From positions 1-64,000 of the IMG/VR virus record IMGVR_UViG_3300019487_000019: DNA of 64,000 nt. One strand, 5' to 3'. The notes beneath the pieces were generated by a model, which was not told the origin of the DNA, did not search any database, and saw nothing but the letters and a program-made list of their open reading frames with translations. The DNA is from a virus. Positions 5,540 to 55,261 of this stretch are shown here, one piece after another (the stretch's first letter is position 1; every line of letters starts with the position of its first letter). Both the position numbers and the translations under genes were made by a program.

Positions 5540-5545
5540 GGCAAT

Positions 5546-5801: not shown

Positions 5802-5828
5802 ACCCTCATCGTGATTGATGGAGCTGAC

Positions 5829-6107: not shown

Positions 6108-6108
6108 G

Positions 6109-18576: not shown

Positions 18577-18583
18577 CGGTTTA

Positions 18584-18688
18584 CGGAGATTAGCGCAGCC
18601 TGGTAGCGCATCTGCTTTGGTAAATGCCTTCGTAAGAGGACATTTTCCGAGCAGAGGGTCGCAGGTTCGAATCCTGCATCTCCGACCA
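18584..18688 (+). tRNA. tRNA-Pro (TGG) with a 28-nt insert in the anticodon loop
   Basis: Acceptor CGGAGAT (18584-18590) pairs with ATCTCCG (18678-18684), then ACCA. D arm GCGC/GCGC, anticodon stem TCTGC/GCAGA, T arm GCAGG-TTCGAAT-CCTGC. Without 18621-18648 the anticodon loop would be TTTGGGA, the standard tRNA-Pro loop. The insert falls just after the anticodon and can fold into its own hairpin (AAATG with CATTT, CCT with AGG). It is far too short for a group I intron. Confidence 0.85.
18621..18648 (+). other. Intron-like hairpin insert in tRNA-Pro
   Basis: 28 nt between positions 36 and 37 of the tRNA. AAATGCCT (18622-18629) pairs with AGG-A-CATTT (18637-18645) with one bulge, and flanking GG/CC could extend the stem. 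The placement resembles archaeal and eukaryotic tRNA introns rather than any bacterial type. Confidence 0.6.
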
Positions 18689-39785: not shown

Positions 39786-40250
39786 TTAGACCAGCAGAAA
39801 TTCCTTTTTAAAGTAGGTGACTGTTGCTTGAACCTGTGAAAGAGGGTTATCCTCAAAATCCCAGAGCTCGTGGGCGGTCAGAGTATCAATAAGCGACTGA
39901 TAGCACCCGCGGGCTTCGGAAAGGCGCCGGAAGAAGGGATCGCCCAACAATAGGTTGGGTGTGTCTAGTGTCACGTAAAAATCTTCACCAAAATACTTCT
40001 CAAGCAGCTTTGCGTAGACCAAAGCCACTGCAAACGACTTTTGCGGTTGGTGAATCCACTCATTCCAGCTAACTGTGAAATATGAGATGATTTCAGCTTC
40101 AAAGTCAGCGTCATCCAACGCTCGGCCCACGTTGTCGACCGTAACACTTTGCCCTTCCAGAGCAGCCAGTTTCTCATCTGTGAAAAACAGATCCCCAGGA
40201 TCAGGATTCTGACTATAGTAATACTGTTGTCTTATTTGCCATTCTTTCAT
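39786..40250 (-). CDS. Hypothetical protein at the end of the radical SAM operon
   Basis: 154 residues from ATG 40250 (or 165 from 40283); it begins inside the preceding radical SAM gene. MKEWQIRQQYYYSQNPDPGD; helical C-terminal half with FFRRLSEARGCYQSLIDTLT. Not recognised. Its coupling suggests it belongs to the radical SAM system, though it could equally be a fibre-region gene. Confidence 0.6.
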   Translation of the reverse strand: MKEWQIRQQYYYSQNPDPGDLFFTDEKLAALEGQSVTVDNVGRALDDADFEAEIISYFTVSWNEWIHQPQKSFAVALVYAKLLEKYFGEDFYVTLDTPNLLLGDPFFRRLSEARGCYQSLIDTLTAHELWDFEDNPLSQVQATVTYFKKEFLLV

Positions 40251-41154
40251 CTTTGTACCAGTCCAATAAATGTCGAAAGCCATTGCACGAGTGTTCCAAC
40301 GTTTTCACTTCACGCAAATGTTCGCTTAAACAGTGTCCAAGATATGGACACGTTGCGCAAAAACCATTCATGAAGACACGCTTACGTTCCTTCTGTGTCC
40401 ACGCATAGTAATCAAGCAAAGTATCTAGTTGTTCAAAATATTCATTGTCGTTGGCATCGAATTCCAACACAGCAAACTTCCCATGAGGCGTGATATACAC
40501 ATGATCATCACTGAAAGAGTTCGCCTTTCCAGCAAGGCTATTTTCAATCAATTGTTGATTGATGAACTTAAAGCGCTTTTCGATCGGGCTGACGAGCCAC
40601 TTCTTGACAAATTCCTCATAATTCCGGAAGGAAACACCATGAGCGTTATGTTGATTCGTTGAATACGGCTTGATTTCAACCGTTTTGACATTTGCAACTG
40701 CATTGAGAACGCGAATCATTTCATCAACATCTTTCTCAATTAAGCAACGTCCTGCCAACATTAGCACATGAAGATCACCACCGTATTTCATCATGTTGTC
40801 AAACACCTGTTCGTGTTGTTGTCGACAGTCAAAGTCGTAGCTAACGCTAAGAATTGCACGTCGCCTCAAAAACGTTGGATGAATTCGAGAAAGATTTGTG
40901 ATGATACTGACTTGGCCTGGGTAGTATCGCTCTATGACATCGAATAGTTCTTCCAGATAGCGTTCTGGTAGAATCGCGACTTCCCCACCATACAGATCGA
41001 TGTATTCGATCGGTTCAAATACACTAATCTCAGCCAGCATCGCATCAAGACGTTCAAGCATCAACAAACGCCTATTCGACAATTGGTCGACACCAAGGTA
41101 GCAAAACTCGCAACGAAAGTTGCAGAAGTATGATGGATTGATCGAAATCTTCAT
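40213..41154 (-). CDS. Radical SAM enzyme 1 of 8
   Basis: 313 residues from ATG 41154. CX3CX2C at C11-C15-C18 (SYFCNFRCEFCYLG) binds the SAM cluster, and YIDLYGGEVAIL is the GGE motif. The C-terminus has FCATCPYLGHCLSEHL, a reduced Cys cluster that could hold an auxiliary Fe-S or zinc. Radical SAM enzymes split SAM to make a 5'-deoxyadenosyl radical. The start overlaps the 2OG oxygenase-like stop. Confidence 0.85.
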   Translation of the reverse strand: MKISINPSYFCNFRCEFCYLGVDQLSNRRLLMLERLDAMLAEISVFEPIEYIDLYGGEVAILPERYLEELFDVIERYYPGQVSIITNLSRIHPTFLRRRAILSVSYDFDCRQQHEQVFDNMMKYGGDLHVLMLAGRCLIEKDVDEMIRVLNAVANVKTVEIKPYSTNQHNAHGVSFRNYEEFVKKWLVSPIEKRFKFINQQLIENSLAGKANSFSDDHVYITPHGKFAVLEFDANDNEYFEQLDTLLDYYAWTQKERKRVFMNGFCATCPYLGHCLSEHLREVKTLEHSCNGFRHLLDWYKDERMANKTTVLL

Positions 41155-41606
41155 AGTCGTATATTCGTAGCAATCGACAAACGCATTCCTGTATACGGAG
41201 TTACACGATGATCCCACGATCCGGGAAACAACAGCAAGCTTCCTTGCTCTGGATGGAATGATGTCATCTCTCCATCGGGATGGTACACGATAATATCTCC
41301 TTCGCCGACAGGGTTATCATTTATGACGTAGTAATTTGCAACAATATCAGCGTGCTTTGTATGATTGTGTTTTAATAAATGGGTATTTGAATTGATCGTT
41401 GTTACACACCAACCATCAAACTTACAGGGAGTTCGTCCCGTCATTGTTTCGACTGATTCAATAATGAACATTCGCAGCCCCCTAAGCTCCGGCCACTGCT
41501 CACTCCAAATATTTTGCGGATCATCATAGTTGTACATCATCGGATAGTTCAAGATGCCTTTGACAATATCATTGAATACCGCATCAGCTTGATAGATTTT
41601 AATCAT
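41151..41606 (-). CDS. 2OG-Fe(II) oxygenase-like protein
   Basis: 151 residues from ATG 41606 (ATGA overlap). LLKHNHTKHADIVANYYVIN, EGDIIVYHPDGEMTSFHPEQ, GSLLLFPGSWDHRVTPYTGM then RLSIATNI. The layout (His-rich strand, acidic turn, GxLLxFPxxxxHxVxPxxGxRxSI) is that of 2-oxoglutarate/Fe(II) dioxygenases with the distal His and the 2OG-binding Arg. It may add hydroxyl groups to the same substrate the radical SAM enzymes act on (inference). Confidence 0.65.
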   Translation of the reverse strand: MIKIYQADAVFNDIVKGILNYPMMYNYDDPQNIWSEQWPELRGLRMFIIESVETMTGRTPCKFDGWCVTTINSNTHLLKHNHTKHADIVANYYVINDNPVGEGDIIVYHPDGEMTSFHPEQGSLLLFPGSWDHRVTPYTGMRLSIATNIRL

Positions 41607-42343
41607 CGTAGACGAAGGTGTTGCAATAATGGATTGCATTCACGATACATTTGATACACCTGACACATCCATGTTGTGTTTACGGCTTGGCGAAACGAAA
41701 GCTCTCCATACACACAACCAAAATGGCGATCCACGTCACGATAAATTAGTTCAGCAATTCGATTGTGCTCAAGCATCGTCCAAATCTCTGTCATATCATC
41801 TTGGATGTTCCAGATTGTGAAGAATCGCTCCCACGTCTTAATGATTTCTCGAATGTCGTAGTTCTCCAGCACATATTCGTAGTTGTCTTCTGTAAACATC
41901 GAGTCAAACATCCACGAAAGTCTGGGATCGGTCTTTGCGTATGACAACTGCGCGAGATAATCCGAGCGATCTACTTTCAGATCAGGAAATAAAGTTTCGA
42001 GATCTGGCAATGCACGAATAATGTGTTGCTTTAATGATAGCATCTCTTCGATGAACAATCGATGCGAAGTGTTTTTGACCACTGCCAGTGTCGCTGTTGC
42101 GTATCGAGATTCGGGATTAGCCAAGAAATCCCCTAACAGATGATCAAGTCGTAGAACTGGTATGTATCGTCCCGGCTGAATAACATCATATGCGGAAGTA
42201 AAGTTTGCATATGGTGCAGGCATATACTGATTTGTTTTGCCCGTCACATAATCGTGAAACAGAGTTGCTTTGTAAAGGTCATACATGACCTTGCAGTGTG
42301 GTTCTGCAAATAGTTGCTTGTGTGTAGCGATAAACTCGTTCAC
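41603..42343 (-). CDS. Radical SAM operon protein, GCVYG family member 1
   Basis: 246 residues, GTG start overlapping the preceding stop. N-terminus MNEFIATHKQLFAEPHCKVM; the C-terminus IYRDVDRHFGCVYGELSFRQ then CQVYQMYRECN is shared with the 50.2-51.3-kb protein (ERDVARGLGCVYGAGRYRLR ... CQVF). No known domain. It could be a substrate-binding chaperone, or a modified protein, as the family has an invariant Cys. Confidence 0.6.
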   Translation of the reverse strand: MNEFIATHKQLFAEPHCKVMYDLYKATLFHDYVTGKTNQYMPAPYANFTSAYDVIQPGRYIPVLRLDHLLGDFLANPESRYATATLAVVKNTSHRLFIEEMLSLKQHIIRALPDLETLFPDLKVDRSDYLAQLSYAKTDPRLSWMFDSMFTEDNYEYVLENYDIREIIKTWERFFTIWNIQDDMTEIWTMLEHNRIAELIYRDVDRHFGCVYGELSFRQAVNTTWMCQVYQMYRECNPLLQHLRLR

Positions 42344-43395
42344 GCTGCCTCCTTGACACCACCAAAATTGATCTCGAGAATTTCTGTTGCAATCGACTTC
42401 ATAATCTTGCAGTGAGGCTCCACAAGATTATGTTCTTTCAGGTCCTTGACAGTCTTACGGCAGCCGTTGCAAATCTTAAACATCGGGCACGTCAAGCATT
42501 CTTCTTTCATGCTTATTAAGGAAGGATCACTTTGCAGTGGGGTAAAGAATTCTTTCCCGTAAATTTCACGGAAGAATGTAATTGGATGCGTTCGATCATC
42601 CGCAATTGCACCACACGAATAGTAATCACCGCTCGGGTTTAACGCTCGAATGTTTTCATCACACTGACGGTGTTGGGGGCACATTGTGTGAAGCCCTTTC
42701 AATCGCTGAACCATTTGTTTTGTATTGAATTCCCACGGCGTCAATCCTTGCCGATACACTTCAATATATGTTCGATAGATTTTTGACAACAAATAAGGCT
42801 TACTTTGAACACCTGATGCGTTTGCATAATTGAGTTTGCATTCAACGTTCATTCGCTTTGCCAAACGAACGTTATCCAATGCTGTGTCCTCATTTTCATC
42901 ACTAATCACTGAAATGAAATCTGGCCGATAACCAATTCGTTCAAGGAACAAATTACTGACCTGCCAGAAGATGTCTTCTGTGAACACTTGCTTCTCTGTA
43001 ATCCGGCGCGTATCACCGTAATTGAAAGATGTTGTAATGCCAACACGTGGATGTTTGAATAACTCTTCCCACATCTGTGGCTTTTTGAAGAACGCCCATA
43101 AATTTGTCGTCAGACTTACCGTCGCTTTGTACTTTCGTTGGTCAAGGAATTCTATGATTTGCCAATAATAGTCGGGCTTTACCATTAGCGGATCCCCACC
43201 ATTGACAATAATTGTCGAAGTGTTAGGAAAGCGATCAAGAAAGTCGTAGATATATTGATGATCGAGTACGGCTGCTTTGTCATCCGTAATATTGGTCGAT
43301 GAACAGAACGTGCACTTGAAGTTGCAAGCCTCTGTTGGCTTGATAATTAACTCCATTGCACGTGGGTCTGTGCTGTCAATCAATTTATGCAACAT
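42340..43395 (-). CDS. Radical SAM/SPASM-like enzyme 2 of 8
   Basis: 351 residues from ATG 43395; the frame also has ATG 43440 inside the upstream gene. CX3CX2C C24-C28-C31 (TEACNFKCTFCSST), IIVNGGDPLM (GGE-type motif), and a SPASM-type C-terminus CLTCPMFKICNGCRKTVKDL ... EPHCKIM that can bind auxiliary clusters. SPASM proteins often modify ribosomally made peptides. Another Cys pair (MCPQHRQCDENIRA, SCGAIADD) lies between. Confidence 0.85.
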   Translation of the reverse strand: MLHKLIDSTDPRAMELIIKPTEACNFKCTFCSSTNITDDKAAVLDHQYIYDFLDRFPNTSTIIVNGGDPLMVKPDYYWQIIEFLDQRKYKATVSLTTNLWAFFKKPQMWEELFKHPRVGITTSFNYGDTRRITEKQVFTEDIFWQVSNLFLERIGYRPDFISVISDENEDTALDNVRLAKRMNVECKLNYANASGVQSKPYLLSKIYRTYIEVYRQGLTPWEFNTKQMVQRLKGLHTMCPQHRQCDENIRALNPSGDYYSCGAIADDRTHPITFFREIYGKEFFTPLQSDPSLISMKEECLTCPMFKICNGCRKTVKDLKEHNLVEPHCKIMKSIATEILEINFGGVKEAA

Positions 43396-43963
43396 CGAAA
43401 ACTCGTCTTTCGAAAATTGTTGGAGCGATGGGCTTCCCATAGGCTTCCATTAGAGCGCCGCGACGTGAGGCTATTTTGAGAGCCGCCTGACAATCAAACC
43501 GACAAGGAAAGAAGCTGATTGTGCGATTGTGAAGATCAGGTGTCATATACTTGCTGAATTGTTCGCCAGGAATCGACTCCGATAGAGCCGAACTTAGGTA
43601 ATTATACTTGTGCATTACATGCTTCACCGATATGGCAAAAGCTTTGATGCAACATATGGGATAGTCATAATAATATCCAAGATTGCCGTGATCATCTTGA
43701 TATTCGGCTTGAATTAGCTCCTGCACGACCATGACGTCGGCCGCAACATATATCTCGTAGTCGTCGTTGTGAAAATATGTGGGGTCGCTTCCACCATACA
43801 CATCAATATCCTGTCGTTCTGTAGGAACGATACCAAACTGAAGTCTCCTCGCGTGAATCAAGTCGATAGCATTCGCCAAATGTTCTTTACGAACTGATAT
43901 GCGGCAAGCAGCGCGGCGCTTTTCACTGACATCAATCAGATCGAGAAAATCACACGACGACAT
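43385..43963 (-). CDS. Cys-rich DUF483-like protein
   Basis: 192 residues from ATG 43963, inside the end of radical SAM 3. NLGYYYDYPICCIKAFAISV and ISFFPCRFDCQAALKIASRR: a 'GYPxCCxxAF ... F-PCxxDCxxxxxxA' arrangement as in DUF483-like and related small cysteine proteins that probably bind Fe-S or zinc. It could be an electron or cluster partner of the radical SAM enzymes. Confidence 0.6.
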   Translation of the reverse strand: MSSCDFLDLIDVSEKRRAACRISVRKEHLANAIDLIHARRLQFGIVPTERQDIDVYGGSDPTYFHNDDYEIYVAADVMVVQELIQAEYQDDHGNLGYYYDYPICCIKAFAISVKHVMHKYNYLSSALSESIPGEQFSKYMTPDLHNRTISFFPCRFDCQAALKIASRRGALMEAYGKPIAPTIFERRVFDVA

Positions 43964-45011
43964 TGTACTGGGTAGCATTTTTCGGATCCAATATAGTGTT
44001 AAAGAATTCTTTGTATAGGCAAGTTGCCATCTCTTCGCGGTTTGTCCAGTCAGCCTGAACGAAGCAACGGAACGAACATCGATCAAAGTGCTCACAACTT
44101 AAGCAACCATATTTGTCGAGGTGGGCTTGAATGATATTAGCATTGCTCTTATAGTCAATTTCCGTGTTGAAGTCGTCTTGATCATACTTCAGGTAGCGAC
44201 ATTTTACTTCACGACCATCCGGTAGTAGTGTTAGTTTATTCAACGAGTAGCATGTCATCGTGTTGAATCGATGATGTACCCAATCACTTACAGGAGCGAC
44301 ATTTGGATAATGTTCCGCTAGGAACAGAAACACTTCAAGGTGCTCGCGATCACTCGGTATCATGTGTTGTGAAAGTCGTTCTGGCACATAATAGTCAAAG
44401 TACAAGGGGTATCGAGTGTAGAGATACTCAAATTCCTCGTCTTTTTCGGTCATGATTCGCTTAATTGCTTGCTTTGTTAGCACAAAGCCAATCGTGTAGA
44501 TTTGACTGCCAAACCGTTCCAAGTTCTGATGGAACAAGTCCTTTTTGGCAACGTTTAGAGGGCGTCCTGCGAAGTCATAACTGGTCGAAATGTTCGATTT
44601 GATGCCAAGCAGGTGCAATGTATCGAGCAGTTTTTGGACCCTCGTCCACTTCGTGAACACGAGGTTCGTGACCCAATTGAAAACACACGTTTTTCCAGCC
44701 TGATTTGCGTGGGCATCAACATCGAGGGCAAAGTTGAGGTAATCGATGAATAGATCGTCTGAAACCGCATCATTAAACAGTTCACCACCCATCATGTTGA
44801 TGATGAATTTGTCCATCCGGCTATTGCGAATAAACTCGTTCACACGATCGACCTTATTCATCACCGTATTCATTCCTACTTTCGAGTTGTGATCTTGCCC
44901 ACAAAAGGCACACGCAAGATTACAAAACTCAAAGAAGTGCAGTTCAATTTCTGCTGCTTCATTGACTTTGTTTTTCAGGACCTGATTGAGTAGGTCTTCA
45001 TGTGTATTCAT
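43950..45011 (-). CDS. Radical SAM/SPASM-like enzyme 3 of 8
   Basis: 353 residues. CX3CX2C C30-C34-C37 (FEFCNLACAFCGQD), FIINMMGGELFND, and a C-terminal cluster CLSCEHFDRCSFRCFVQADW ... MATCLYKEFF. A central CRYLKYDQDD follows LPDGREVKC, a typical lead-in to SPASM domains. ATG overlaps the stop of the 45.4-kb gene. Confidence 0.87.
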   Translation of the reverse strand: MNTHEDLLNQVLKNKVNEAAEIELHFFEFCNLACAFCGQDHNSKVGMNTVMNKVDRVNEFIRNSRMDKFIINMMGGELFNDAVSDDLFIDYLNFALDVDAHANQAGKTCVFNWVTNLVFTKWTRVQKLLDTLHLLGIKSNISTSYDFAGRPLNVAKKDLFHQNLERFGSQIYTIGFVLTKQAIKRIMTEKDEEFEYLYTRYPLYFDYYVPERLSQHMIPSDREHLEVFLFLAEHYPNVAPVSDWVHHRFNTMTCYSLNKLTLLPDGREVKCRYLKYDQDDFNTEIDYKSNANIIQAHLDKYGCLSCEHFDRCSFRCFVQADWTNREEMATCLYKEFFNTILDPKNATQYNVVV

Positions 45012-45412
45012 TCGTGCATATCCGTTCGAAATTCAGGCTCGATTATAAATTTAGGGAGCGCTTGACACCATCTGGGTTTATTGCGTGGGTGATACACCAA
45101 CGCCTGGATATTTACGTCAAATCCCTCTTCCTTTTCATATGAACTCAATAGTATTCGGCGAAGCAATCCAAAGGATCCAACATGATACTCTTCGATTAGG
45201 AAGAGGATGTTGTTCTCGATATATCGAAACTCAAGGGCAAGAGGGTAGTACAAGGCATCCTGATGCCGGAAGAATACGATGTACTCAGACGGCTGTTTGG
45301 ACTGTCGAAAGTTCTCATTACTTACAACAACATCATGGCGATCAACTCCAATGAAGGTTGGTGTTGTGAAAATTGGTTCGGTTCGAATCAGGCTAGGAAA
45401 TTTTGTTGACAT
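45008..45412 (-). CDS. Hypothetical protein in the radical SAM operon
   Basis: 134 residues. MSTKFPSLIRTEPIFTTPTF, a beta-rich core (IENNILFLIEEYHVGSFGLL) and a basic tail. Overlaps neighbours at both ends, by 20 bp upstream and 4 bp downstream. Could be a small peptide-recognition partner; no RRE helix-strand pattern is certain. Confidence 0.6.
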   Translation of the reverse strand: MSTKFPSLIRTEPIFTTPTFIGVDRHDVVVSNENFRQSKQPSEYIVFFRHQDALYYPLALEFRYIENNILFLIEEYHVGSFGLLRRILLSSYEKEEGFDVNIQALVYHPRNKPRWCQALPKFIIEPEFRTDMHE

Positions 45413-46151
45413 TACTCACTCCCATCGGCTTTGCGAATCGAATAGGCTGATTTCGAATCTGCCCCGCAAACACTAATGCGGTCAATTCCGTCCAGTCTTC
45501 GAATGTACTGGCCTTGCTCAAAAATCCATAGCCGGCGCGGTCGAATCGAAGGTGTGCTAGAATCTCACTGCGCTGAAATAAAGCACTGATGTTCTCTGGT
45601 TTGAAAATCTTTTCGATATATCGTTGTGCTGTTGCCCACGGCACGTGTAGGGTAAGTGTCGTATCGTCGAGAACAGCATCATAACCGACAAGAACCGTAT
45701 CGTCCTCGAAGCGAATGTGTGATCCCATCATCATATAGGTCGTGTTGCACGACAGCTCGGTAATCGGCGTCTGCAAATCAACTGTGGCGAGTGCAAAGTG
45801 TCGAGGAAGTGTAAATCGATCGTAAGCATTATTCGCAAGTCGAAGCGCGAGAGTCTTATCTTCTCTCGATTGATTACGGCCCGATAATTGTTCCATTGTG
45901 TGTTTGTGAATATCAAATTGTCTCATCAACCATTGTTCGCGCGTCCATTGTTTCTGATGATACTCTTGTTGAACCCAAGCCTGAACCAATTGCTGATACG
46001 TCAAATTATCGTGCGGATATGGAAGTGTTCCTAACGAATAACGATACAGACCAGGAAAATAATCAGCACTCGACAAAATCGTCTGAAACAACTCTTCGTC
46101 GTTTATCGACGCAAGTTCACGTAAATCAATTTTTGATATTGTTGGCGACAT
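45393..46151 (-). CDS. Hypothetical protein in the radical SAM operon
   Basis: 252 residues from ATG 46151, inside the end of radical SAM 4. MSPTISKIDLRELASINDEE; helical first half with an Arg/Trp-rich segment (WTREQWLMRQFDIHKHTMEQ), beta-rich second half (MMMGSHIRFEDDTVLVGYDA). Not recognised. Confidence 0.6.
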   Translation of the reverse strand: MSPTISKIDLRELASINDEELFQTILSSADYFPGLYRYSLGTLPYPHDNLTYQQLVQAWVQQEYHQKQWTREQWLMRQFDIHKHTMEQLSGRNQSREDKTLALRLANNAYDRFTLPRHFALATVDLQTPITELSCNTTYMMMGSHIRFEDDTVLVGYDAVLDDTTLTLHVPWATAQRYIEKIFKPENISALFQRSEILAHLRFDRAGYGFLSKASTFEDWTELTALVFAGQIRNQPIRFAKPMGVSNVNKIS

Positions 46152-47202
46152 TCATTGCTCTCTTTGCAAGAATGCAGTCTTTTATTTGATAACGGTCCAT
46201 CATGTGGAGGATTCCCCGATCAGCACACGACCCCAGATATTGACACGTTCCACATTCTTTCTCGTTGGATTTCCTGTATTCATTTAACAGGAGATTATCC
46301 TCGAATTTCTCGATTTCTTCAATTGACCATTGAGCAAGAGGGATTCGATAATGCGGGTCAAACGAGACATATCGCTCGTAAAACATTGGTGAATAGTACA
46401 GTTCCCCATTACGAAAATTGTATTGTTTTTCAACCAAGCTATCGGTCAAGCGTCCCACACTGAACCGAACGAATTGCACTGTTTCAGGGTCTACATTGTC
46501 GTTAAACAGAACCTTAATTTGTTGTGCTGCTCGTTCAAATTCTTCGCGCGAAAGGTTCGTTTTTCGACCAATACTGAAATTGAAGTCAATGTCTGTGTTG
46601 TACATTTGCTCAATCAGGTTATGAAGGTAGACATAGTCATGGAGCAGTTCGCTAATTCGCGTCTGGGAATAATCAAACACGTTGAACAAGGCATGACTTG
46701 TGGGCGGCTGACGAAACCTCTTGAGAATTTGATGACGGGTTGCCTTCACGTGTTCAAGATAACTAGTGTTGTGTATTTGTCGAAGATCAAAAGTGATATT
46801 AATCTCGATCGGTTTGTCCGAATAGTGTTCGTTGAAAACATCAATAACATCGGTGGTGCTTGGAGTTTCTGCTAGAAAGGCACTTGCAAAGCTGATTTTT
46901 TCAAAGCGTTTTAAGAGATCAATTGTTCGCCAATCAGCAAGAACAGAAGCAGTATTGCTCGAGGAAAACAAGTCTGTTGGTCCAACCGTTGCAATGAATG
47001 GCTGATAATTTTTCCGGATTGCTGTTTCTAGCAGAACGGTTAAGTTCTGATAATCTTGTTGAAGAAAGCCTGTTTGCGCTGTCTTATCGACGAAACACCC
47101 CTCACACTTCCACTGACAGCCATACAGAACATCAAAATTTAGGTCGAGGTACAGTGTATGTGCTTCGGCGTAGCTGACACCAATTTTGTCTCTATCGCTC
47201 AT
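46126..47202 (-). CDS. Radical SAM enzyme 4 of 8, PTD subfamily
   Basis: 358 residues. CX3CX2C C29-C33-C36 (LYGCQWKCEGCFVDK). Where GGE is expected, ATVGPTDLFSSSNTA appears instead, also in enzymes 5 and 7. C-terminus CGTCQYLGSCADRGILHMMD ... CILAKRAM, three or four Cys in a fixed pattern. Close paralogue of enzyme 5 (SVGRLTDSLVEKQYNFRNGE in both, nearly). Probably a duplicated pair acting in sequence or on related sites. Confidence 0.85.
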   Translation of the reverse strand: MSDRDKIGVSYAEAHTLYLDLNFDVLYGCQWKCEGCFVDKTAQTGFLQQDYQNLTVLLETAIRKNYQPFIATVGPTDLFSSSNTASVLADWRTIDLLKRFEKISFASAFLAETPSTTDVIDVFNEHYSDKPIEINITFDLRQIHNTSYLEHVKATRHQILKRFRQPPTSHALFNVFDYSQTRISELLHDYVYLHNLIEQMYNTDIDFNFSIGRKTNLSREEFERAAQQIKVLFNDNVDPETVQFVRFSVGRLTDSLVEKQYNFRNGELYYSPMFYERYVSFDPHYRIPLAQWSIEEIEKFEDNLLLNEYRKSNEKECGTCQYLGSCADRGILHMMDRYQIKDCILAKRAMNVANNIKN

Positions 47203-48310
47203 TACTTTCTACCTTGGTCAACTTAAAGTTGATTGCATCGAGAGCATCTTTGGCGATGACACAGCGCCTGATGCCAAACGCATCCATTAATGTCAGGACG
47301 CCTCTATCGATACACGAACCTAGGTAATGGCAGGAACCACATTCTTCTTTGTTGCCGATGTTCGCATACTGAGTGACTTGTGCAGTATGCTCCCACTGCT
47401 CGAACTCTCGAGCTGTCCATTCTTTGATTGGGATCTCGAATTCAGAACGGAAACTGACAAATCGTTCATACAGCAATGGGCTAGCATAGAACCTTCCGTT
47501 GCGATAGTTGTACTGCTTCTCAATAAGACTATCGGTTAACTTGCCAAACGAAAAACGTAGAAATTTGACTTTCTCGCCAGAGATTGCATCATCAAACAAC
47601 TCCGAGATCTGCAACACAGTCTTCTCAAATTCTTCTCCTGGCAGATCATCCTTTCGTCCAAGGCTAAAGTTGTAGTCGATCGTTGTTTCGAACAAGTGAT
47701 TAATCTTGTGGTGTAAGAAGTCGTAATTCTGTAGAGTCTCGGCAATCTTTGTCGCACTATAATCAAACACATTGAAGATGCCAAAGGTGCGGATTTCCGA
47801 AAAGGCCGTCAGGCGGGCTTGGAGACTATCTTTATTGCGTGCTAGCAATTCAAGGTATTTCTGATTGAGAATTTGGGCGGGCTCAATAATGATATTAATC
47901 TCCAACTCCATATCTTTATAGAGTGTGTTTAAAACCTTCACGATGTCATCCACACGAGGCGCATCCACATCGAGGTATGTTGTTTGGAGGCTTAGTCGTC
48001 GAAAGCGATTCAAGATTGCAACAGTGGCAGGATCACGAAGGAAAGCAGCAGTGTTATTTGCAGCAAGGAAGTCGGTTGGAGCAATGAAGGCGATAAACGG
48101 CTTGTAGCTACTACGCTCAAAATCATCAAGAAGCTTCACAAACTGCGTTGTGTAGCCCCCAATGCCATCTTGGATCTCTTTATTAACATGGCACCCACGA
48201 CAAGACCACTGGCAGCCGTTTAGAACCTCAAAATTGATATTGAGGTAAAACGTATTTGCATCTTTAAGGTGTCGTGAAGCGAGATACTGTTGGTCAATGT
48301 AGCTGTCCAT
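47192..48310 (-). CDS. Radical SAM enzyme 5 of 8, PTD subfamily
   Basis: 372 residues. CX3CX2C C33-C37-C40 (LNGCQWSCRGCHVNK), AFIAPTDFLAANNTA in the GGE position, FGKLTDSLIEKQYNYRNGRF and C-terminal CGSCHYLGSCIDRGVLTLMD ... CVIAKDAL. The ATG overlaps the preceding TAA by one base. Paralogue of enzyme 4. Confidence 0.86.
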   Translation of the reverse strand: MDSYIDQQYLASRHLKDANTFYLNINFEVLNGCQWSCRGCHVNKEIQDGIGGYTTQFVKLLDDFERSSYKPFIAFIAPTDFLAANNTAAFLRDPATVAILNRFRRLSLQTTYLDVDAPRVDDIVKVLNTLYKDMELEINIIIEPAQILNQKYLELLARNKDSLQARLTAFSEIRTFGIFNVFDYSATKIAETLQNYDFLHHKINHLFETTIDYNFSLGRKDDLPGEEFEKTVLQISELFDDAISGEKVKFLRFSFGKLTDSLIEKQYNYRNGRFYASPLLYERFVSFRSEFEIPIKEWTAREFEQWEHTAQVTQYANIGNKEECGSCHYLGSCIDRGVLTLMDAFGIRRCVIAKDALDAINFKLTKVESNER

Positions 48311-49128
48311 TATGTTCCCTGAAGTGCCTCAATCATTTTTTCAACAGTTGTCTGCTTAGTACACAAAGCGACCAAGAAACTGAAGAATGAATTCTCAGGA
48401 ACATCGAAGTAGTGGATCAGACGCTTTCCTTTGAACATATACTCAGTAAACTGTTGCTTGAAGTATTTACCTGGTGTCGGGGCTGGAATAGAAAAATATA
48501 GTTCCAGGAACAGCGGAATGCGGAAAAGATTGACAACATTACTTCCAATATACAGCGGATCGTCAATCTTTTCATATTTGTCAAAGAATCCCGGAAACGC
48601 TGTTTCGAACGCTGGGATAGCTACCTGTGATCCATCATCGGTTGTTTCAACAAGCTGCACCGAATACATTGCAAACAACATCATAGAGTCAAGGAACGTA
48701 TACCAGCGCTCCATCAGAGCTGGATTCTTCGCAGCAAAGGCTTTCATTTCGTCAAGCGATAACGGAACAAATGGTACAATGTCTCGTTCAATGTTCACGC
48801 CCTTGTTGTGTAGGAGAACAGCAGCTGTTAGAAGCGTGAGTCCTTTTGTTTCGTTGATGTTTCGCGACTCCATAAAGTCCTTGAGAAGCTCCATCCGTTC
48901 TTCAACGGACGTGTCAGCGAAGTCAACTTCTGCGGGAAGATCAAGGTTCGAAATATAGGTGAGGAACACCTTTCCCTTGACAGAACTCTTGGCGTAATCT
49001 ATTACGAACAATAGATTCTTATTGATAAAGAATTCTTTGATTTGGTCCATCGTCAGTGGTGCAACCACTCGGCGAATTTCCCTCTCAACCGGTTCGATTT
49101 CTTCAACCTGTTCAATTTCTTCTGCCAT
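48310..49128 (-). CDS. Hypothetical protein in the radical SAM operon
   Basis: 272 residues, AGGAG before the ATG. Acidic N-terminus (MAEEIEQVEEIEPVEREIRR), helical body with IDYAKSSVKGKVFLTYISNL, and a long run of aromatic residues near the end. Cytoplasmic. Not recognised; placed between enzymes 5 and 6. Confidence 0.6.
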   Translation of the reverse strand: MAEEIEQVEEIEPVEREIRRVVAPLTMDQIKEFFINKNLLFVIDYAKSSVKGKVFLTYISNLDLPAEVDFADTSVEERMELLKDFMESRNINETKGLTLLTAAVLLHNKGVNIERDIVPFVPLSLDEMKAFAAKNPALMERWYTFLDSMMLFAMYSVQLVETTDDGSQVAIPAFETAFPGFFDKYEKIDDPLYIGSNVVNLFRIPLFLELYFSIPAPTPGKYFKQQFTEYMFKGKRLIHYFDVPENSFFSFLVALCTKQTTVEKMIEALQGT

Positions 49129-49137
49129 TATCGTCTC

Positions 49138-50226
49138 CTAACCTTTGTGCAACTCAATCAAGTTGTCCTGAGCAATTCGATACTTACGAGCAAACTGTGG
49201 TAAGTTCTCTTGTTGAAAGCGAATGACGGCTTTACTCAATGGACATTCGTCTTCATCAGGCCAAAACAAATCTACTTCACAGTTGCCGCCACACACTTCA
49301 AAAAATTCACACTTGTAGCACACATCTGCCATCTTCTCATCTTTACGACGGACGATTTCATCCAGAGCTTTTGTTGCGAATGCATCCCAGTTTGAATACA
49401 TTTCATCAACATCACTGATCGGCTCATAATAGGTCTTGTCAGGACACAATCCAACAGACCCCCACGGGTTCATCGTGAATGTCCGCTGAGCACAACAATT
49501 ACACTTACAGTCGAGCGTATGCCCCTCTTGAAGACTTTTTGTGAACATATCAACCTGAGGCATTGACCACGATACATCATTTTCCACATAATACTCAACG
49601 AGTTTTTGCAGCCATGCTGCCCAAGGTACGTTTCGGACTTTAAAATTACGGGTCTTTTGGTCGAAGGTGGTTAACAGTTCGAAGTCAATCGACTTCACCC
49701 CCGCAAACCTTTTTGCTAACTCTATGGGGTCCAACTCAAGTAGATGTTTTTGGGTTGTAATGGCAATCGCAATATTGACCTTTTCGTCGAGGAGTATCTG
49801 GAGATTCTTCCAGAAAAGAGCCTCTTGATTAGCGGTTGTAAAGCGAATTTTATAGTCCCAACTCACACCAATCTCGTTATCACAGCGCGTACGAAGGAAG
49901 TCAAGAAACTCGTCTGTAATGTTGTACATCAGATTTGTTTGTGGAACAATGATTCGCGTGGTTTCGTCGAAGATTGTGTCGATTTGATCACACACTTCGT
50001 GCATGTATGGAATTGGCGCTAGAAAGGTTTCCCCACCATGCAAATAGAACGTTGCTTTCTTTGGATTGACGTTCTGACGAATCGCCTTAAAGTATTTCTC
50101 AGTCGTGCTAAGTTCAGCAACTTTAATTGGATCGCGATTTCCTGCCGTAAAGCAGTGCGTACAATTTAGATTGCAGCCTTGAACGATTCGAGTGTAGATG
50201 ACATTGAAGTCAGTGTTGAAGAACAT
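49138..50226 (-). CDS. Radical SAM/SPASM enzyme 6 of 8
   Basis: 362 residues. CX3CX2C C18-C22-C25 (VQGCNLNCTHCFTAG), FYLHGGETFLAPIPYM, then a middle Cys motif CKCNCCAQRTFTMNPWGSVG with LCPDK and a SPASM end CYKCEFFEVCGGNCEVDLFW ... ECPLSK. This is the layout of SPASM peptide maturases such as anaerobic sulfatase maturases and sactipeptide-type enzymes. Related to enzyme 8. Confidence 0.9.
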   Translation of the reverse strand: MFFNTDFNVIYTRIVQGCNLNCTHCFTAGNRDPIKVAELSTTEKYFKAIRQNVNPKKATFYLHGGETFLAPIPYMHEVCDQIDTIFDETTRIIVPQTNLMYNITDEFLDFLRTRCDNEIGVSWDYKIRFTTANQEALFWKNLQILLDEKVNIAIAITTQKHLLELDPIELAKRFAGVKSIDFELLTTFDQKTRNFKVRNVPWAAWLQKLVEYYVENDVSWSMPQVDMFTKSLQEGHTLDCKCNCCAQRTFTMNPWGSVGLCPDKTYYEPISDVDEMYSNWDAFATKALDEIVRRKDEKMADVCYKCEFFEVCGGNCEVDLFWPDEDECPLSKAVIRFQQENLPQFARKYRIAQDNLIELHKG

Positions 50227-50229
50227 GGC

Positions 50230-51300
50230 TTATGCCAATTCGTATGTTCCCAAAACACTTGTCGTACCTTCACGCTTCATGCGATAGGCCCAAGTTAGAA
50301 ACACCTGACACATACGGAGACGATAACGGCCAGCACCATACACACAACCTAGGCCACGTGCCACATCGCGTTCGAGTAGTTGTTCGTACTTGTGATCATA
50401 GATTAGATCAATCAATTCAGACATATCTTCATATGGAGCGCCCCACGCCTCGAGAACTCGTGCATAGAGCTGCTTGAAGATTTTACGATCGTAGGTGGCT
50501 TCAACGTATTTTGGATTTTGATATGAAACTTTTGAGTCAACCATCCAACGAAGATATTCGTTGGAGCCAAACGAAGTAAACAACAAATGATCGAGGTCAG
50601 ACAGATTGATTTGTGCATCTGGCGGAAGCACAGTATTGATGTCGCCAATCCCGTTAATCAGATCAGCTTTCAGAACTTCAAGTTCTTGAACCCAGTTGGC
50701 CCAAGTAAACCGTTCCACTTTTTCTAGGACAACCTGGCGCATGGGACTCTTGACTGGATCACGCAAATAGTCAGCAAGCTGGTACTCAAAACTTACCAGA
50801 TGCTTTGGCAGTTTTTGTAGGAACAATGCAACAGGTGTCTCTTGATAAAGTTTATCAAAGGTTTCGCGCGACATAATTGTCAATTCACGTGCTGCAACAC
50901 GTCCTTGCTCATTGCTATCTTCATCATATAAGAATGACTTGAACCAACGATCTTGTGTAAACATTTTGTGCAATTCGTACACGCTGTCGACCGTTGGATT
51001 CTTGAGAATGCTTTTCCAATATTGTATCTGTAGTGCTTGATACAGGTTGGGCTCTACGTACAAAACGTTTCGTGTATCACCGAGTTTCGTTCCATTGAGA
51101 TAACTCCAGATTTTTGTCTTGTCGCCACCAAGAAATTGTTTCGCAAAGTCATCAAATGATGCATGCACTTGAACGAACCGAAGGCCTGGATCAAGAAGAT
51201 CTATTTTGGACCAACGACTGCTGATAGCAAGATTGCTATAGCGAATTGTTGTCAATGCGGCATCAATATCAAGGTAGACATCACCAAATACATGAAACAT
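50230..51300 (-). CDS. Radical SAM operon protein, GCVYG family member 2
   Basis: 357 residues from ATG 51300 (GGAG upstream, six bases after the precursor-like stop). C-terminus LLERDVARGLGCVYGAGRYR, LRMCQVFLTWAYRMKREG shared with the 41.6-42.3-kb protein. Otherwise helical with no known domain. It lies directly after the precursor-like gene, a common place for a substrate-handling partner. Confidence 0.6.
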   Translation of the reverse strand: MFHVFGDVYLDIDAALTTIRYSNLAISSRWSKIDLLDPGLRFVQVHASFDDFAKQFLGGDKTKIWSYLNGTKLGDTRNVLYVEPNLYQALQIQYWKSILKNPTVDSVYELHKMFTQDRWFKSFLYDEDSNEQGRVAARELTIMSRETFDKLYQETPVALFLQKLPKHLVSFEYQLADYLRDPVKSPMRQVVLEKVERFTWANWVQELEVLKADLINGIGDINTVLPPDAQINLSDLDHLLFTSFGSNEYLRWMVDSKVSYQNPKYVEATYDRKIFKQLYARVLEAWGAPYEDMSELIDLIYDHKYEQLLERDVARGLGCVYGAGRYRLRMCQVFLTWAYRMKREGTTSVLGTYELA

Positions 51301-51305
51301 TTTCT

Positions 51306-51830
51306 TTATCTCCGTCCACGAGCACCATGACACGACGAGTGGCATGATGAATGACATGCAAGTAATTGAACAGTCGATGCTTCAGTTGCTGCTCGATTGG
51401 TATTCAAAGCTGTAATATACGTTGAAAGAGCTGTGCCGCTTGCGTCGGTACTGGCAACAGGAGCACCAGGAGGATTAACAAGTGCCTGGTATGCAGAATT
51501 CAAAATCGTTTTCCCCGAACCAAGAAACGTACAGCCGATACAATTAAACCAAAATTGCGTGTCTCGAATGCGAGAAGAAGCCAGAGCAAAGTTATATAAA
51601 GCACTCGCCAATCCTGAAGCAACAAGATCAGAAGCCGTAATGTCGCCGGCGGTAATATCTTGAGCTGGTGTATTACTCAAATAAGCCGCAGCATAAGCAG
51701 GATAGCCCGCATACGTAAAAGGATTACCTGACAGATTGTAGACAGTGCCAGCGTTTGCGGCAGCAATAACCGTCGTATTAAATTCGCTGACTACACTTGC
51801 TTTCGTTGCATCAGTTCCTGCGGTCGGCAT
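51306..51830 (-). CDS. Candidate RiPP-like precursor or modified protein with CHSS repeats
   Basis: 174 residues from ATG 51830 (GAGGAG upstream, start inside the end of radical SAM 7). A mild, Ala/Thr/Ser-rich body (leader-like, 1-155) ends in ACHSSCHSSCHGARGRR, with Cys at 159, 163 and 167. Two more Cys (FWFNCIGCTF, 97 and 100) lie in the middle. A Cys-His-Ser-Ser repeat at the very C-terminus of a protein in a radical SAM operon is what a substrate would look like. The long body could also be a virion protein whose tail is modified. Confidence 0.6.
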   Translation of the reverse strand: MPTAGTDATKASVVSEFNTTVIAAANAGTVYNLSGNPFTYAGYPAYAAAYLSNTPAQDITAGDITASDLVASGLASALYNFALASSRIRDTQFWFNCIGCTFLGSGKTILNSAYQALVNPPGAPVASTDASGTALSTYITALNTNRAATEASTVQLLACHSSCHSSCHGARGRR

Positions 51831-52812
51831 TCATATTCTCCTCAAGATAGCATGGAAGGCCCATCTCGCGAGCAAGAGCAAAAAACCCTTTCCCGTGGCA
51901 TGTTGACAGATTCGGACAACTATCGCATGCATCAATAATAGGGTGATTATCCGCCTCCATTATCGAATAAGCTGACAAGAAACCGTCAAAAGATGCCTGT
52001 TCTAACGCATATTTATGGAGGAAAACGTATTCATCGAACGGCATAATCGGCGATACGTAAATCTTTCCATCCTTGAACGTAAACGCTGGTTTTCGCAGCA
52101 TCGTTCTGCTATTGAACCTTGGATCACCATCTTTTACGTATAAGTCCGAAAACTCACGCAAAAGCTTATAGCTCTCCAGCATCATTTTTTGCCTCTTTGT
52201 CGGGCCAATCAATGAATTGTAGAGGAAAGTAAAGTTAACCTCAACAATTTTGTCGGCCGAAAGGCGGTCAACGAGTTCATGCAGCCGTACAATCTCTTCA
52301 GGTGAAAACTTCACCCCAACGTTCACGGCAAGATTGATAACGGTTGATGGATATACCTGAACGATCTGCTGGATCTTTTCCCTTAACATTGTTTCGTACG
52401 TTGTTTCAAACAGATGATTGAGAACAATGTTAACTTGAAGCTCTACTTTAGACCCATTACGTTCGATTAGGTCGAAAACATCTTTGTCCCATTCACCAAT
52501 CAGCGTTGAAGCAATGCCAACATATCGAAAGCGCCTTGCAAGTTCGGCAAACTCTTCGCTTCGAAACAGATCTTTGTTCGATTCGTTCTCAAAGATATCG
52601 GTAGGGAGGAGGTAGCAAGTCTCGAGACTGTAGCCGTGTTGCTGAAGTTCCTGACTCAATGTAAGAGCTGGTTCATACGTTCCGAAAGTATTTCCGTCTC
52701 GTTTGTAGAAACACCCACGACACCCCATGTTGCAGAGATTGAGAAGAAACATTCGAAACTCAACAAGTCGATAAGGATCAGTATATTTCCCATACAGGTT
52801 TTGTAGTGGCAT
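51811..52812 (-). CDS. Radical SAM enzyme 7 of 8, PTD subfamily
   Basis: 333 residues. CX3CX2C C27-C31-C34 (LLNLCNMGCRGCFYKRDG), CYLLPTDIFENESNKD in the GGE position, C-terminus CDSCPNLSTCHGKGFFALAR ... LPCYLEE, same layout as enzymes 4 and 5. Its last codons overlap the candidate precursor by 20 bp, the closest coupling in the operon, so this is the best bet for acting on it. Confidence 0.87.
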   Translation of the reverse strand: MPLQNLYGKYTDPYRLVEFRMFLLNLCNMGCRGCFYKRDGNTFGTYEPALTLSQELQQHGYSLETCYLLPTDIFENESNKDLFRSEEFAELARRFRYVGIASTLIGEWDKDVFDLIERNGSKVELQVNIVLNHLFETTYETMLREKIQQIVQVYPSTVINLAVNVGVKFSPEEIVRLHELVDRLSADKIVEVNFTFLYNSLIGPTKRQKMMLESYKLLREFSDLYVKDGDPRFNSRTMLRKPAFTFKDGKIYVSPIMPFDEYVFLHKYALEQASFDGFLSAYSIMEADNHPIIDACDSCPNLSTCHGKGFFALAREMGLPCYLEENMNADRRN

Positions 52813-53942
52813 TATTCCTGTCCCATGAACTCGCCGAGCACCTCACGGTATAGTTGTGTGTTGCGTTCTTGTTTGAAATGTTTCATCAACGATTTCGGTG
52901 AGGCGCAAATATCACCTTCCCAAGCAAGCTGATGACAATCACCATTGCAGACATCAAATACTTCACAAGAGTAGCAGAGAGGATTCCGTGCACTTTCGCA
53001 TGCAATATTATTCAAACGACCTGGTGAGGTTAGCAACTCAACAATATTGTCGTCGATCGAACCGAACGTGTTCTCAACGGCAGAATTTGGGCATCCACCA
53101 ATTTCGCCAGTTGCATTGATAGTGAAAATCTTTTGCTCACAAGAGCGGCAACGACATCCTGAATGCGTTGTAAAAACAAAGCTTGACAAAATTGAATTGA
53201 AGAACAAATTCTCAAAGTGTTTATGCATTCCGTGCTGAACTGTTTGCTGCCACATCTTGACAAACCACGCATCAAGTTCTTTATTCGTCGGGAAAATATG
53301 TGGATTCAAATTCGCATTTCCGTTTGGTGTGATCCGTTCGAGGTGCAAGTAGCGAACGCCGAGATCAGCGACAAACTCGAGGAGTTCAATTGGCTCACGT
53401 TCAACAACAGACTTACTCAATGATACCATTAACGTCACGTCCATCCCCTCTTGTCGAAGGACACGAACATTATCTCGCCACAAGTCTTCTTGTTTCTGAT
53501 TCGAGAAACGAATCCCTTTGTCCCACGAAGTAGCAAGACCATTTGTGAATGCTTGTTTCATGAAGTCCAATTTCTCGTTATCGAGTTTGTAGACAAGGTT
53601 CGTCGTTGTTGACCACCAAAGATTTGGCCAAAGGTCTTTACATTCTGCCCAAACAGTTCGCATATCACTGACAGGTGCAAGGAAGGGTTCTCCGCCGTGG
53701 AATGCAACGTGTGCGTTTGTAAGGATGGGGGCAACTTCTTTCAAGCGGTAGAACCAACTAATCGTTTTCGGAACGTTGAAGTAGATCTTTTTACCATTAA
53801 TTCCATTTGTAAAGCAATGTGCACAATTCAACTGACACGTTTCAGTCGTTTTCAGATAGACCATCAATTCCTTCAGATGGACGTATGGAGCAGGGGCAAT
53901 TGCCTTTTTGGCTCGATGAAACGTAATTGTCGACAGGGTCAT
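52812..53942 (-). CDS. Radical SAM/SPASM enzyme 8 of 8
   Basis: 376 residues. CX3CX2C C36-C40-C43 (TTETCQLNCAHCFTNG), HVAFHGGEPFLAPVSDM, middle motif CRCRSCEQKIFTINATGEIG with GCPNS, and SPASM CYSCEVFDVCNGDCHQLAWE. Paralogue of enzyme 6. First gene of the operon, 53 bp after the tail fibre stop with only a weak promoter-like stretch between, so probably transcribed from the fibre's late promoter. Confidence 0.9.
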   Translation of the reverse strand: MTLSTITFHRAKKAIAPAPYVHLKELMVYLKTTETCQLNCAHCFTNGINGKKIYFNVPKTISWFYRLKEVAPILTNAHVAFHGGEPFLAPVSDMRTVWAECKDLWPNLWWSTTTNLVYKLDNEKLDFMKQAFTNGLATSWDKGIRFSNQKQEDLWRDNVRVLRQEGMDVTLMVSLSKSVVEREPIELLEFVADLGVRYLHLERITPNGNANLNPHIFPTNKELDAWFVKMWQQTVQHGMHKHFENLFFNSILSSFVFTTHSGCRCRSCEQKIFTINATGEIGGCPNSAVENTFGSIDDNIVELLTSPGRLNNIACESARNPLCYSCEVFDVCNGDCHQLAWEGDICASPKSLMKHFKQERNTQLYREVLGEFMGQE

Positions 53943-53995: not shown

Positions 53996-55261
53996 TTATG
54001 CCCACTGTGCTGGGAAGAACTGTTTCCAATTGACGTCAGAACCACTTGAACCAAAGAAAGTTGGAAAACTTACTGCTGTTGTCATTGCAACCCAAGCATG
54101 GCTCGTCGCTGGGTTAACATAAATGTCGCCCGGTTTATGAGAGACTGCAGCACCACTAACATAAGCATTTGCGAATCCCGTTGAACCACTTGATGGAGTA
54201 CCAACCAGAGCGCCAAGACCATTGACATAAGCAATTGATGCAGCATTGTTTGAAGGAGCAGCAGGATACACTTGAACATCTAGACCCGTAATAGGGTTCG
54301 CATCCATTGCAAGACTTCCCGTCATATTCGGCGGTGTGTTGAGCGCCGTGCCTGCGAGACGAACATACGTGCTATTCAAAACTGCAGTTGAGGCCAAGCT
54401 ATCAGTATACGATTTGGTTGCAGCATCTTGTGCGCCAACTGGGTTTGCCAGGTTGGTGATCCTAAAGCCGCCCATATCAAAGTTATTTGGACCAACCCAT
54501 CCTTGTGTTCCACTCGACAGAATGATACCCACCCAAGATGTGCCGTCCCAAATATTCAGTTGTTCGGAATCTGTTTCCCACCAGAAAGCACCTATTGCTG
54601 GATCCGGTGGAGGATTTGTCGAAAGTGAAACGTACGAGATTGGAAGTGGAGTCCAGTCTTGTTCGAATTCATCGTACATCAACACGTTTCGTTCTGGATA
54701 GTCCGTACCGTTGACAGGTGGCGTTGTGCTCTCCGCATGTGTGCGCTCAACCCATCCTGCTGGAACTTGCTGGAACATACTGTAATAACCATACAGTGTG
54801 TTTGCTTTGATTGCTTGACCGAAAGCGTCGGTTGCTGGTACGAAAGGACCTGCTCCTGTATACCAATATGCACCGATCGAAGCTGCTGGCGCGGTATTTG
54901 ACGTAGCGGAGCCAGCACCACCGTTCACAAGAAAGTCAGTTGGAGCTGTTTGCCACACGGCTGGATTGTCTGGATCAAGACGATACCAATAAACAATCGG
55001 ACCATTCGTATCACGACGATAAAACTTTGTTCGAAGCCACAACTGACCACCAACGCCAAACGGTGGTGGCGTTGCACCATTCAGGTTTTCTGCAATGCGC
55101 AGCAAGTCTTCATCAACAGCCTCGCCCCATTCAAGGGCACCCCGACCATACAAACGAAGGTTTGATGCAGATGACGTTCCGCCAGGTCCATTAAATCCAC
55201 CAGGATTGATAGTGAACCCACCTCGGAGCGGATCGCTGAAATTGATTGAGTACGAAGACAT
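53996..55261 (-). CDS. Tail fibre protein, 421 aa
   Basis: MSSYSINFSDPLRGGFTINP, LYGRGALEWGEAVDEDLLRI, AENLNGATPPPFGVGGQLWL: the attachment-type N-terminal module seen in the 39.7-kb fibre. NNFDMGGFRITNLANPVGAQ is a shaft motif. WDGTSWVGIILSSGTQ and PGDIYVNPATSHAWVAMTTA near the end are tip-like. Late promoter and ribosome-masking hairpin upstream. Confidence 0.82.
   Translation of the reverse strand: MSSYSINFSDPLRGGFTINPGGFNGPGGTSSASNLRLYGRGALEWGEAVDEDLLRIAENLNGATPPPFGVGGQLWLRTKFYRRDTNGPIVYWYRLDPDNPAVWQTAPTDFLVNGGAGSATSNTAPAASIGAYWYTGAGPFVPATDAFGQAIKANTLYGYYSMFQQVPAGWVERTHAESTTPPVNGTDYPERNVLMYDEFEQDWTPLPISYVSLSTNPPPDPAIGAFWWETDSEQLNIWDGTSWVGIILSSGTQGWVGPNNFDMGGFRITNLANPVGAQDAATKSYTDSLASTAVLNSTYVRLAGTALNTPPNMTGSLAMDANPITGLDVQVYPAAPSNNAASIAYVNGLGALVGTPSSGSTGFANAYVSGAAVSHKPGDIYVNPATSHAWVAMTTAVSFPTFFGSSGSDVNWKQFFPAQWA

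Follow-up and report, generated by a model that had tools for sequence, protein, structure and literature searches.

A radical SAM gene cassette among the tail-fibre genes of a large phage, with a candidate substrate that carries a conserved C-terminal tail

Anaerobic sulfatase maturases (anSMEs) and QhpD-type proteins are radical S-adenosylmethionine (SAM)/SPASM enzymes that modify a protein which retains its fold. In the Hxs system (HxsA, the radical SAM pair HxsB/HxsC, and HxsD; TIGR03976 to TIGR03979), a short His/Ser-rich segment lies beside several radical SAM enzymes, as it does in the locus described here. In phages, eight radical SAM genes were reported in 2025 among the structural genes of the Aeromonas jumbo phage 332-Vera and are termed highly unusual (PMC12390700). 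Here we analyze a window of 64,000 nucleotides, positions 1 to 64,000 of the IMG/VR virus record IMGVR_UViG_3300019487_000019, in which genes for eight radical SAM enzymes or divergent homologues (R1 to R8) form an operon with the gene of a small protein, here called PRE. We consider it probable that this operon is a maturation cassette, resembling those of ribosomally synthesized and posttranslationally modified peptides (RiPPs), for a structural protein whose modified tail contacts other cells.

The candidate substrate PRE and its tail

PRE is encoded at 51306-51830 and its C-terminus reads CHSSCHSSCHGARGRR. The general form of this tail, CHxSCHxSCHxSRGRR ending directly at the stop codon, occurs at about 130 related loci, and in all of the related loci fetched first a gene with the same ending lies directly downstream of a radical SAM gene. 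Since the search with full-length PRE matched no isolated phage, only the tail being conserved, a DNA pattern was adopted for the tail. Its scan returned at least 120 stretches in IMG/VR and 19 in bacterial and archaeal genomes; the locus counts given here are among the matches listed. The final Arg is followed at once by a stop codon in 167 of 177 pattern sites, although the stop was absent from the pattern, and positions that the pattern left free are also fixed, with Ser at -5 in 134 and Gly at -3 in 129 of 142 distinct sequences. Across 62 aligned homologues, the only invariant columns are tail residues (11 of the last 16 positions), while mean column identity over the whole alignment is 25%. 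The Ser codons of the tail are drawn from both codon families, which therefore points to selection on the protein. A stricter second scan gave 15 sites, 12 of which were already known, suggesting that the first one caught most of the collection. Within the 183-kb record the motif occurs at a single site. In a separate 240-kb phage contig (L127, 7832-8512), a precursor carries an enlarged CHSSCHSN array ahead of a final CHSARGRR.

There are strong grounds to regard PRE as the substrate and its tail as the modified part. The 133 loci with a genuine tail comprise 104 with a single copy and 29 with two tandem copies; where single-copy loci have enough sequence, PRE is preceded in 68 of 76 cases by a radical SAM gene that ends within 250 nt of it (62 R1, 6 R2). 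A ribosomal precursor with a conserved core beside a modifying enzyme, the arrangement by which RiPP systems are recognized, is therefore present as PRE with R1 or R2. A sequence-only reading of the window had already proposed a peptide-modifying cluster, which is supported by this candidate substrate with its conserved C-terminus and by synteny in more than 100 phage loci, the neighbourhood comparison in viral metagenomes having recovered the same cassette there. The same reading had noticed the PRE gene as encoding a Cys-repeat protein, which is indeed present, but had overlooked its role as the likely substrate.

Linkage to the enzymes also bears on whether PRE might act unmodified, as a Cys/His metal-binding tip of a fibre or spike similar to PAAR or gpV tips, with the radical SAM enzymes acting on fibres, a host molecule or a small metabolite. 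The CH repeats could bind metal, the tail variants HSSHSSHSS and CHGNFPPPCH would also suit metal ligands, and the cluster sits among fibre genes. However, the adjoining of a radical SAM gene and PRE in those 68 loci and the retention of PRE together with the radical SAM set in bacterial chromosomes, outside phage genomes, make an unmodified metal tip quite unlikely.

A location in the virion is suggested by Agrobacterium phage Atu_ph07, whose virion proteins were found by electrospray ionization tandem mass spectrometry and are mostly encoded in coding sequences 31-76, 170-215 and 284-329 (Attai et al. 2018, PMC6102473). In this genome gp170 is the PRE homologue and gp215 is the major capsid protein; the numbering of the paper therefore agrees with the GenBank record. 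The virion cluster 170-215, as given there, starts exactly at gp170 and ends at gp215, and the radical SAM genes gp165 and gp168 as well as the U48310 homologue gp169 fall outside it. This one published cluster boundary is strong but indirect evidence that PRE is located in the virion, and it lends support to the virion-linked target anticipated by the sequence-only reading. In other phages the gene upstream of the cassette often encodes a large protein that resembles a fibre.

These observations also separate the preferred interpretation from a classical RiPP pathway, in which the PRE tail, once modified, would be cleaved from the protein and diffuse away as an antibacterial product, a signal or a superinfection factor, the fibre neighbourhood being incidental. 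The SPASM radical SAM enzymes of the cassette are related to darobactin, dynobactin and ranthipeptide maturases, the conserved C-terminal core is short, and the 29 tandem duplications of the precursor would suit such a product. Conversely, the AlphaFold2 model of PRE (mean pLDDT 84) combines a confident N-terminal domain with a low-confidence tail, and with 100-300 residues and a confident fold prediction the N-terminal part is not a short leader. No protease or transporter was recognized in the window cassette by Pfam and PHROG profile matches, although genes for leader removal and export are also absent from some RiPP clusters. Together with the position of the PRE homologue inside the published virion cluster boundary, this makes a diffusible product unlikely.

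Operon structure and identity of the enzymes

The cassette is a minus-strand chain running from 53942 down to 39786, with genes linked by short start/stop overlaps, so the single operon described in the sequence-only reading holds, with two starts corrected. The gene at 40213 probably starts at ATG 41154, which forms an ATGA overlap with the stop of the oxygenase gene, and not at its mechanical start, and the gene at 50230 probably starts at about 51300, in agreement with the N-terminus of its family. Consensus promoter sites are as frequent as in shuffled sequence, so the lack of a strong promoter and the late expression proposed in the sequence-only reading stay suggestions. The features, from upstream to downstream, are as follows.

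53996..55261, minus strand: tail-fibre gene upstream of the cassette; PHROG tail fibre matches.
52812..53942, minus strand: R1, SPASM-type radical SAM enzyme, next to PRE in most loci; CX3CX2C and 8 more conserved Cys; NCBIfam DynA-like match, 1.7e-13; PHROG 1802.
51811..52812, minus strand: R2, divergent radical SAM homologue; 3+4 conserved Cys; PTD replaces GGE.
51306..51830, minus strand: PRE, putative substrate, 174 residues; N-terminal alpha/beta domain and C-terminal CHSSCHSSCHGARGRR; PHROG 35144 over the last 26 residues.
51309..51356, minus strand: codons of the 16-residue C-terminal tail of PRE (putative core); invariant positions among homologues.
50230..51357, minus strand: P1, conserved partner; PHROG 36207; in 11 of 13 long phage loci.
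49138..50226, minus strand: R3, SPASM-type radical SAM enzyme, paralogue of R1; PF04055, 4.3e-7; R1-R3 profile match, E 7e-158.
48310..49128, minus strand: U48310, core partner, 272 residues; PHROG 20767; AlphaFold2 pLDDT 93.
47192..48310, minus strand: R4, divergent radical SAM homologue; PF04055, E 0.025; conserved triad and 4 Cys.
46126..47202, minus strand: R5, divergent radical SAM homologue, paralogue of R4 (41-44% identity); without PF04055 match; conserved triad; R4-R5 profile match.
45393..46151, minus strand: accessory protein common to phage loci L001-L003 and bacterial loci L154/L156.
45008..45412, minus strand: accessory protein, from locus comparison.
43950..45011, minus strand: R6, core radical SAM enzyme with a SPASM-like C-terminus; 3+7 conserved Cys; PHROG 1802, 2.4e-37; in 13 of 13 long loci.
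43385..44095, minus strand: Cys-rich DUF483 protein (PF04467, 1.1e-6, above cut-off); start probably near 43963.
42340..43440, minus strand: R7, core SPASM-type radical SAM enzyme; PF04055, 2.1e-8; 3+9 conserved Cys.
41603..42343, minus strand: P2, shorter relative of P1; PHROG 36207, E 7e-5.
41151..41639, minus strand: 2-oxoglutarate (2OG)-Fe(II) oxygenase; PF13759, 4.4e-6; PHROG 81.
40213..41217, likely start ATG 41154, minus strand: R8, core radical SAM enzyme with one auxiliary Cys set; PF04055, 3.5e-8; in 13 of 13 long loci.
39786..40283, minus strand: U39786, small conserved partner; PHROG 20737; in 10 of 13 long loci.
37520..39730, minus strand: tail protein downstream of the cassette; PHROG 11660 tail protein, 1.6e-24.

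All eight open reading frames that had been listed as radical SAM genes are present on the minus strand. Close to its N-terminus each product has a single CX3CX2C site, a triad that at least 90% of relatives retain in every one of the eight families. The assignment is clear for five of them (R1, R3, R6, R7 and R8), all with a GGE or GGD motif, while the other three (those at 46126, 47192 and 51811) qualify only as divergent radical SAM homologues. The proposed hidden Markov model check gave a correspondingly divided result: R3, R7 and R8 pass the PF04055 cut-off, R1, R6 and R4 score below it, and R2 and R5 have no match, the identity of R1 and R6 coming from radical SAM models of NCBIfam or PHROG 1802. 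R2, R4 and R5 form a group with PTD at the GGE position, the triad and four further conserved Cys; in profile comparison this group matches the clear enzymes no more than marginally, R4 and R5 reaching 78-87% probability with R3, while R2 is linked to R4/R5 at 99.6%. Additional conserved Cys number 7-9 in R1, R3, R6 and R7 and only 4 in R2, R4, R5 and R8, and TIGR04085 scores just under its cut-off for R1, R3 and R7. As expected of peptide maturases, R1, R3, R6 and R7 thus appear by sequence to carry SPASM-like auxiliary Cys sets. NCBIfam models were run on the radical SAM proteins, the precursors and a few partners. A PDB sequence search with R1 gave nothing useful, and PDB sequence and fold searches with U48310 gave no solved relative.

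Among NCBIfam models R8 matches prokaryotic viperin best (2.5e-10), which raises the question of whether the radical SAM genes perform viperin-like nucleotide or defence chemistry with no peptide involved. The viperin label was dropped on score, R8 lying far under the cut-off of NF038283 (40 of 180 bits), and the SPASM-like Cys sets in four enzymes and the strict linkage to PRE render nucleotide or defence chemistry very improbable. The two genes that had been read as oxygenase-like and Cys-rich proved to encode a 2OG-Fe(II) oxygenase and a DUF483 protein, the latter being present, among the loci compared, only in the window and in the bacterial locus L179.

The placement between tail fibres noted in the sequence-only reading is confirmed, both flanks (53996-55261 and 37520-39730) matching PHROG tail or tail-fibre families. 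The window is part of a 183,277-base record whose genes elsewhere include those for a large terminase, a baseplate wedge protein and a DNA polymerase, which identifies the record as a large-phage fragment; the wedge protein shares 47-48% identity with those of the jumbo phages XacN1, CM1 and RAS14. Further features of the record lie outside the cassette. A MazG-like pyrophosphatase protein (56425-57369; PHROG 1247) is encoded upstream of the fibre genes. The DNA polymerase (1265 residues) and terminase (870 residues) of the record (L162:896-4690 and L158:7791-10400) each align with their families in several separate segments, a pattern suggestive of inteins or insertions. At 18504-18685 a tRNA-Ala is followed by a second tRNA-like gene (18584-18685, 102 nt, Rfam 57 bits, not called by ARAGORN) whose anticodon loop is longer by about 26-28 bases, perhaps owing to a small intron or insertion. 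Positions 1-7500 have 54-58% GC, versus about 45% elsewhere, and contain small plus-strand open reading frames between imperfect 38-nt repeats, such as GTTGGCATTCTCCCAGATATCTGGGAGAATGCC, for which Rfam gave no match.

Distribution in phages and bacterial chromosomes

In 93 of 106 loci PRE has U48310 on its downstream side. All of the 13 longest loci contain R1, R6, R7, R8 and U48310; less constant are a cupin-type protein (12, the window being the exception), P1 (11), U39786 (10) and a 2OG oxygenase (9). The core gene set is R1, R6, R7, R8, PRE and U48310, usually with JmjC/cupin and 2OG oxygenases. The JmjC_2 family includes His and Arg hydroxylases, and the match of the cupin homologue in L003 to JmjC_2 fits the His/Arg-rich tail. 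Isolated phages with the cassette are Sinorhizobium Phosso, Agrobacterium Atu_ph07, Burkholderia S13, FLC6 and FLC8, and Pseudomonas DT01. We take these phages to cover both T4-like and phiKZ-like groups; apart from FLC8, each of them had its tail read. A second cassette type (L012, L023, L058, L072 and other tandem loci) has two short precursors of about 127 residues each, multiplied R4-type enzymes and a partner, X367, for which no match was found among isolated phages.

Contrary to what the sequence-only reading had implied, the cluster is not confined to phages. Of 291 genomes from the phylum to which a Bdellovibrionaceae metagenome-assembled genome belongs, 15 carry U48310, nearly all with radical SAM sets and PRE-type proteins. 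Flanking genes, and not a tail-sheath search of these genomes, settled the prophage status of the bacterial loci: L181-L184 share respiratory cytochrome neighbours, and one of them lies on a 4.15-Mb contig, which argues against prophages. The bacterial tails differ (CHGNFPPPCHGSRGRR, CHSNHCSHSNHGSRGRR, CHSSHSSHSSHSSRGRR and CHSNCYTPPPKSRSRR), the R-x-R-R end therefore being the steadiest element. Several bacterial cassettes adjoin a protein with a pilin N-methylation motif (N_methyl) and a C-terminal Peptidase_S74 domain; in Bdellovibrio, S74 fibres are adhesins for prey contact (PMC10769870). Near the loci L153, L155, L180-L184 and L188 are genes for two possible export and assembly partners, one a protein of about 100-130 residues whose N-terminus is twin-arginine-like, the other a protein of about 190 residues that resembles a tail fibre.

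In the phylogenetic tree the window U48310 groups with bacterial sequences, nearest to L178 (support 99/88), and for 12 of 17 window cassette proteins the best match is in a bacterial locus, ahead of the other phage loci compared. This proximity to bacterial versions indicates that the phage may infect such bacteria or have exchanged genes with them. It would also be consistent with a bacterial stretch misjoined to a phage contig, but the same arrangement among virion genes is found in complete isolate genomes and long viral contigs, and in the window the cassette has tail-fibre genes on both sides and phage genes over the rest of the record. Misassembly was dropped, the isolate genomes carrying this same arrangement, and we consider it hardly credible.

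Proposed mechanism and comparison with known systems

In the maturation that we propose for a structural protein, PRE as synthesized would consist of a folded N-terminal domain and a C-terminal tail that is exposed. R1, R6, R7 and R8, here with R3 and the divergent R2, R4 and R5, may install several covalent changes on the Cys, His, Ser and Arg residues of the tail, most likely crosslinks, the bond types being a guess. U48310, P1 and U39786 would guide the enzymes as noncatalytic partners, and the 2OG oxygenase, with a JmjC/cupin protein in most relatives, may hydroxylate residues, by our guess His or Arg. Because the cassette lacks a recognized protease or transporter, the N-terminal domain probably stays uncut and would hold the modified tail fast in the particle, close to the tail fibres, and we infer that the product remains part of the particle. 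At lysis the virion would leave with a chemically built tip touching the envelope of the next cell, a role that is again a guess, and predatory-type bacteria might employ this product on appendages that resemble fibres or pili. Only tentatively do we suggest the broader view that unrelated phages and predatory-type bacteria share an enzyme-built multicyclic tip on tail fibres or pili (a CHxS/SRGRR tail that as many as eight radical SAM enzymes, together with oxygenases, would rebuild) that grips or breaches the Gram-negative envelope.

Several points weigh against maturation of a structural protein. Modification of the PRE tail is read from genes and sequences, and the placement in the virion follows from a published cluster boundary. 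PRE has no PDB fold match and no solved relative, the PDB sequence search being likewise unhelpful, and its fold resembles only other PREs, including the Atu_ph07 homologue, and unnamed phage proteins in viral models. No leader-binding (PqqD-like) domain of a known type was recognized, and R2, R4 and R5 may be inactive as radical SAM enzymes. Finally, a PRE-like protein of a 504-kb megaphage contig (L191, near 1079) ends in CHTNCHSSCHSSCHSSCHGSSGGW, with the CHxS repeats kept and the RxRR end lost.

If the proposal is true, RiPP-type chemistry would reach beyond small secreted products to a structural protein of the virion, and on the broader, tentative view this would be a first case of a virus-particle component matured by several radical SAM enzymes. 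It would explain PHROG families largely without known function (1802, 20767, 36207, 35144, 20737 and 31457) and would offer a directly testable substrate for the multi-radical SAM clusters earlier remarked on in jumbo phages. The fixed 16-residue tail across many N-terminal domains could also act as an enzyme recognition tag, and the chromosomal versions beside S74 fibre or pilin genes suggest a solution for contacting Gram-negative cells shared by phages and predatory bacteria.

Some cassette genes are listed in papers on Burkholderia and Ralstonia phages. For the tail, the partner set and the bacterial versions we found no description in the literature searched, which excludes most subscription papers and preprints, and among the papers listed the CHSSCH string gave chance matches only. 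The claim of an undescribed system thus stands insofar as the cassette was not described earlier as a system, while an eight-radical SAM cluster had been remarked on once, in 332-Vera (PMC12390700). The genomes closest to 332-Vera include DT01, a carrier of this cassette, and the accessible part of the account, whose description is the basis of the likeness, names no substrate, partner or function (PMC12390700).

Among bacterial counterparts, the mosaic adhesive trimer (MAT) fibres of Bdellovibrio are phage-fibre-like S74 proteins that contact prey, and the chromosomal cassettes adjoin pilin-S74 proteins; the MAT paper makes no mention of radical SAM enzymes, and the cassette neighbours carry a pilin N-terminus (PMC10769870). 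The anSME models match the cassette enzymes weakly. Whereas anSME and QhpD systems have one enzyme and an enzyme as substrate, the cassette has 4-8 enzymes and a phage particle protein. DarE and DynA, the SPASM maturases of darobactin and dynobactin, are among the top NCBIfam matches of R1-, R3- and R7-type enzymes, but at about one-tenth of the cut-offs in bits, and PRE is unlike either precursor and no transporter is recognized. The Hxs label was dropped on score: HxsA (TIGR03979) gives no match for the window PRE and 16 of 121.65 bits for that of the bacterial locus L185, HxsC reaches 33.6 of 267.9 bits (R7), and HxsB reaches 23.6 of 370 bits (R1 of L185). The cassette further differs from Hxs in its C-terminal tail with a fixed SRGRR end, its larger number of radical SAM enzymes, its oxygenases and its virion/fibre neighbours. 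Nevertheless, the CHxS units of the tail contain HxS triads, and L185 ends in CHSSHSSHSSHSSRGRR. By kind, the cassette comes closest to RiPP or protein maturation through SPASM radical SAM enzymes; by motif, the nearest system is Hxs, but the cassette fails its models.

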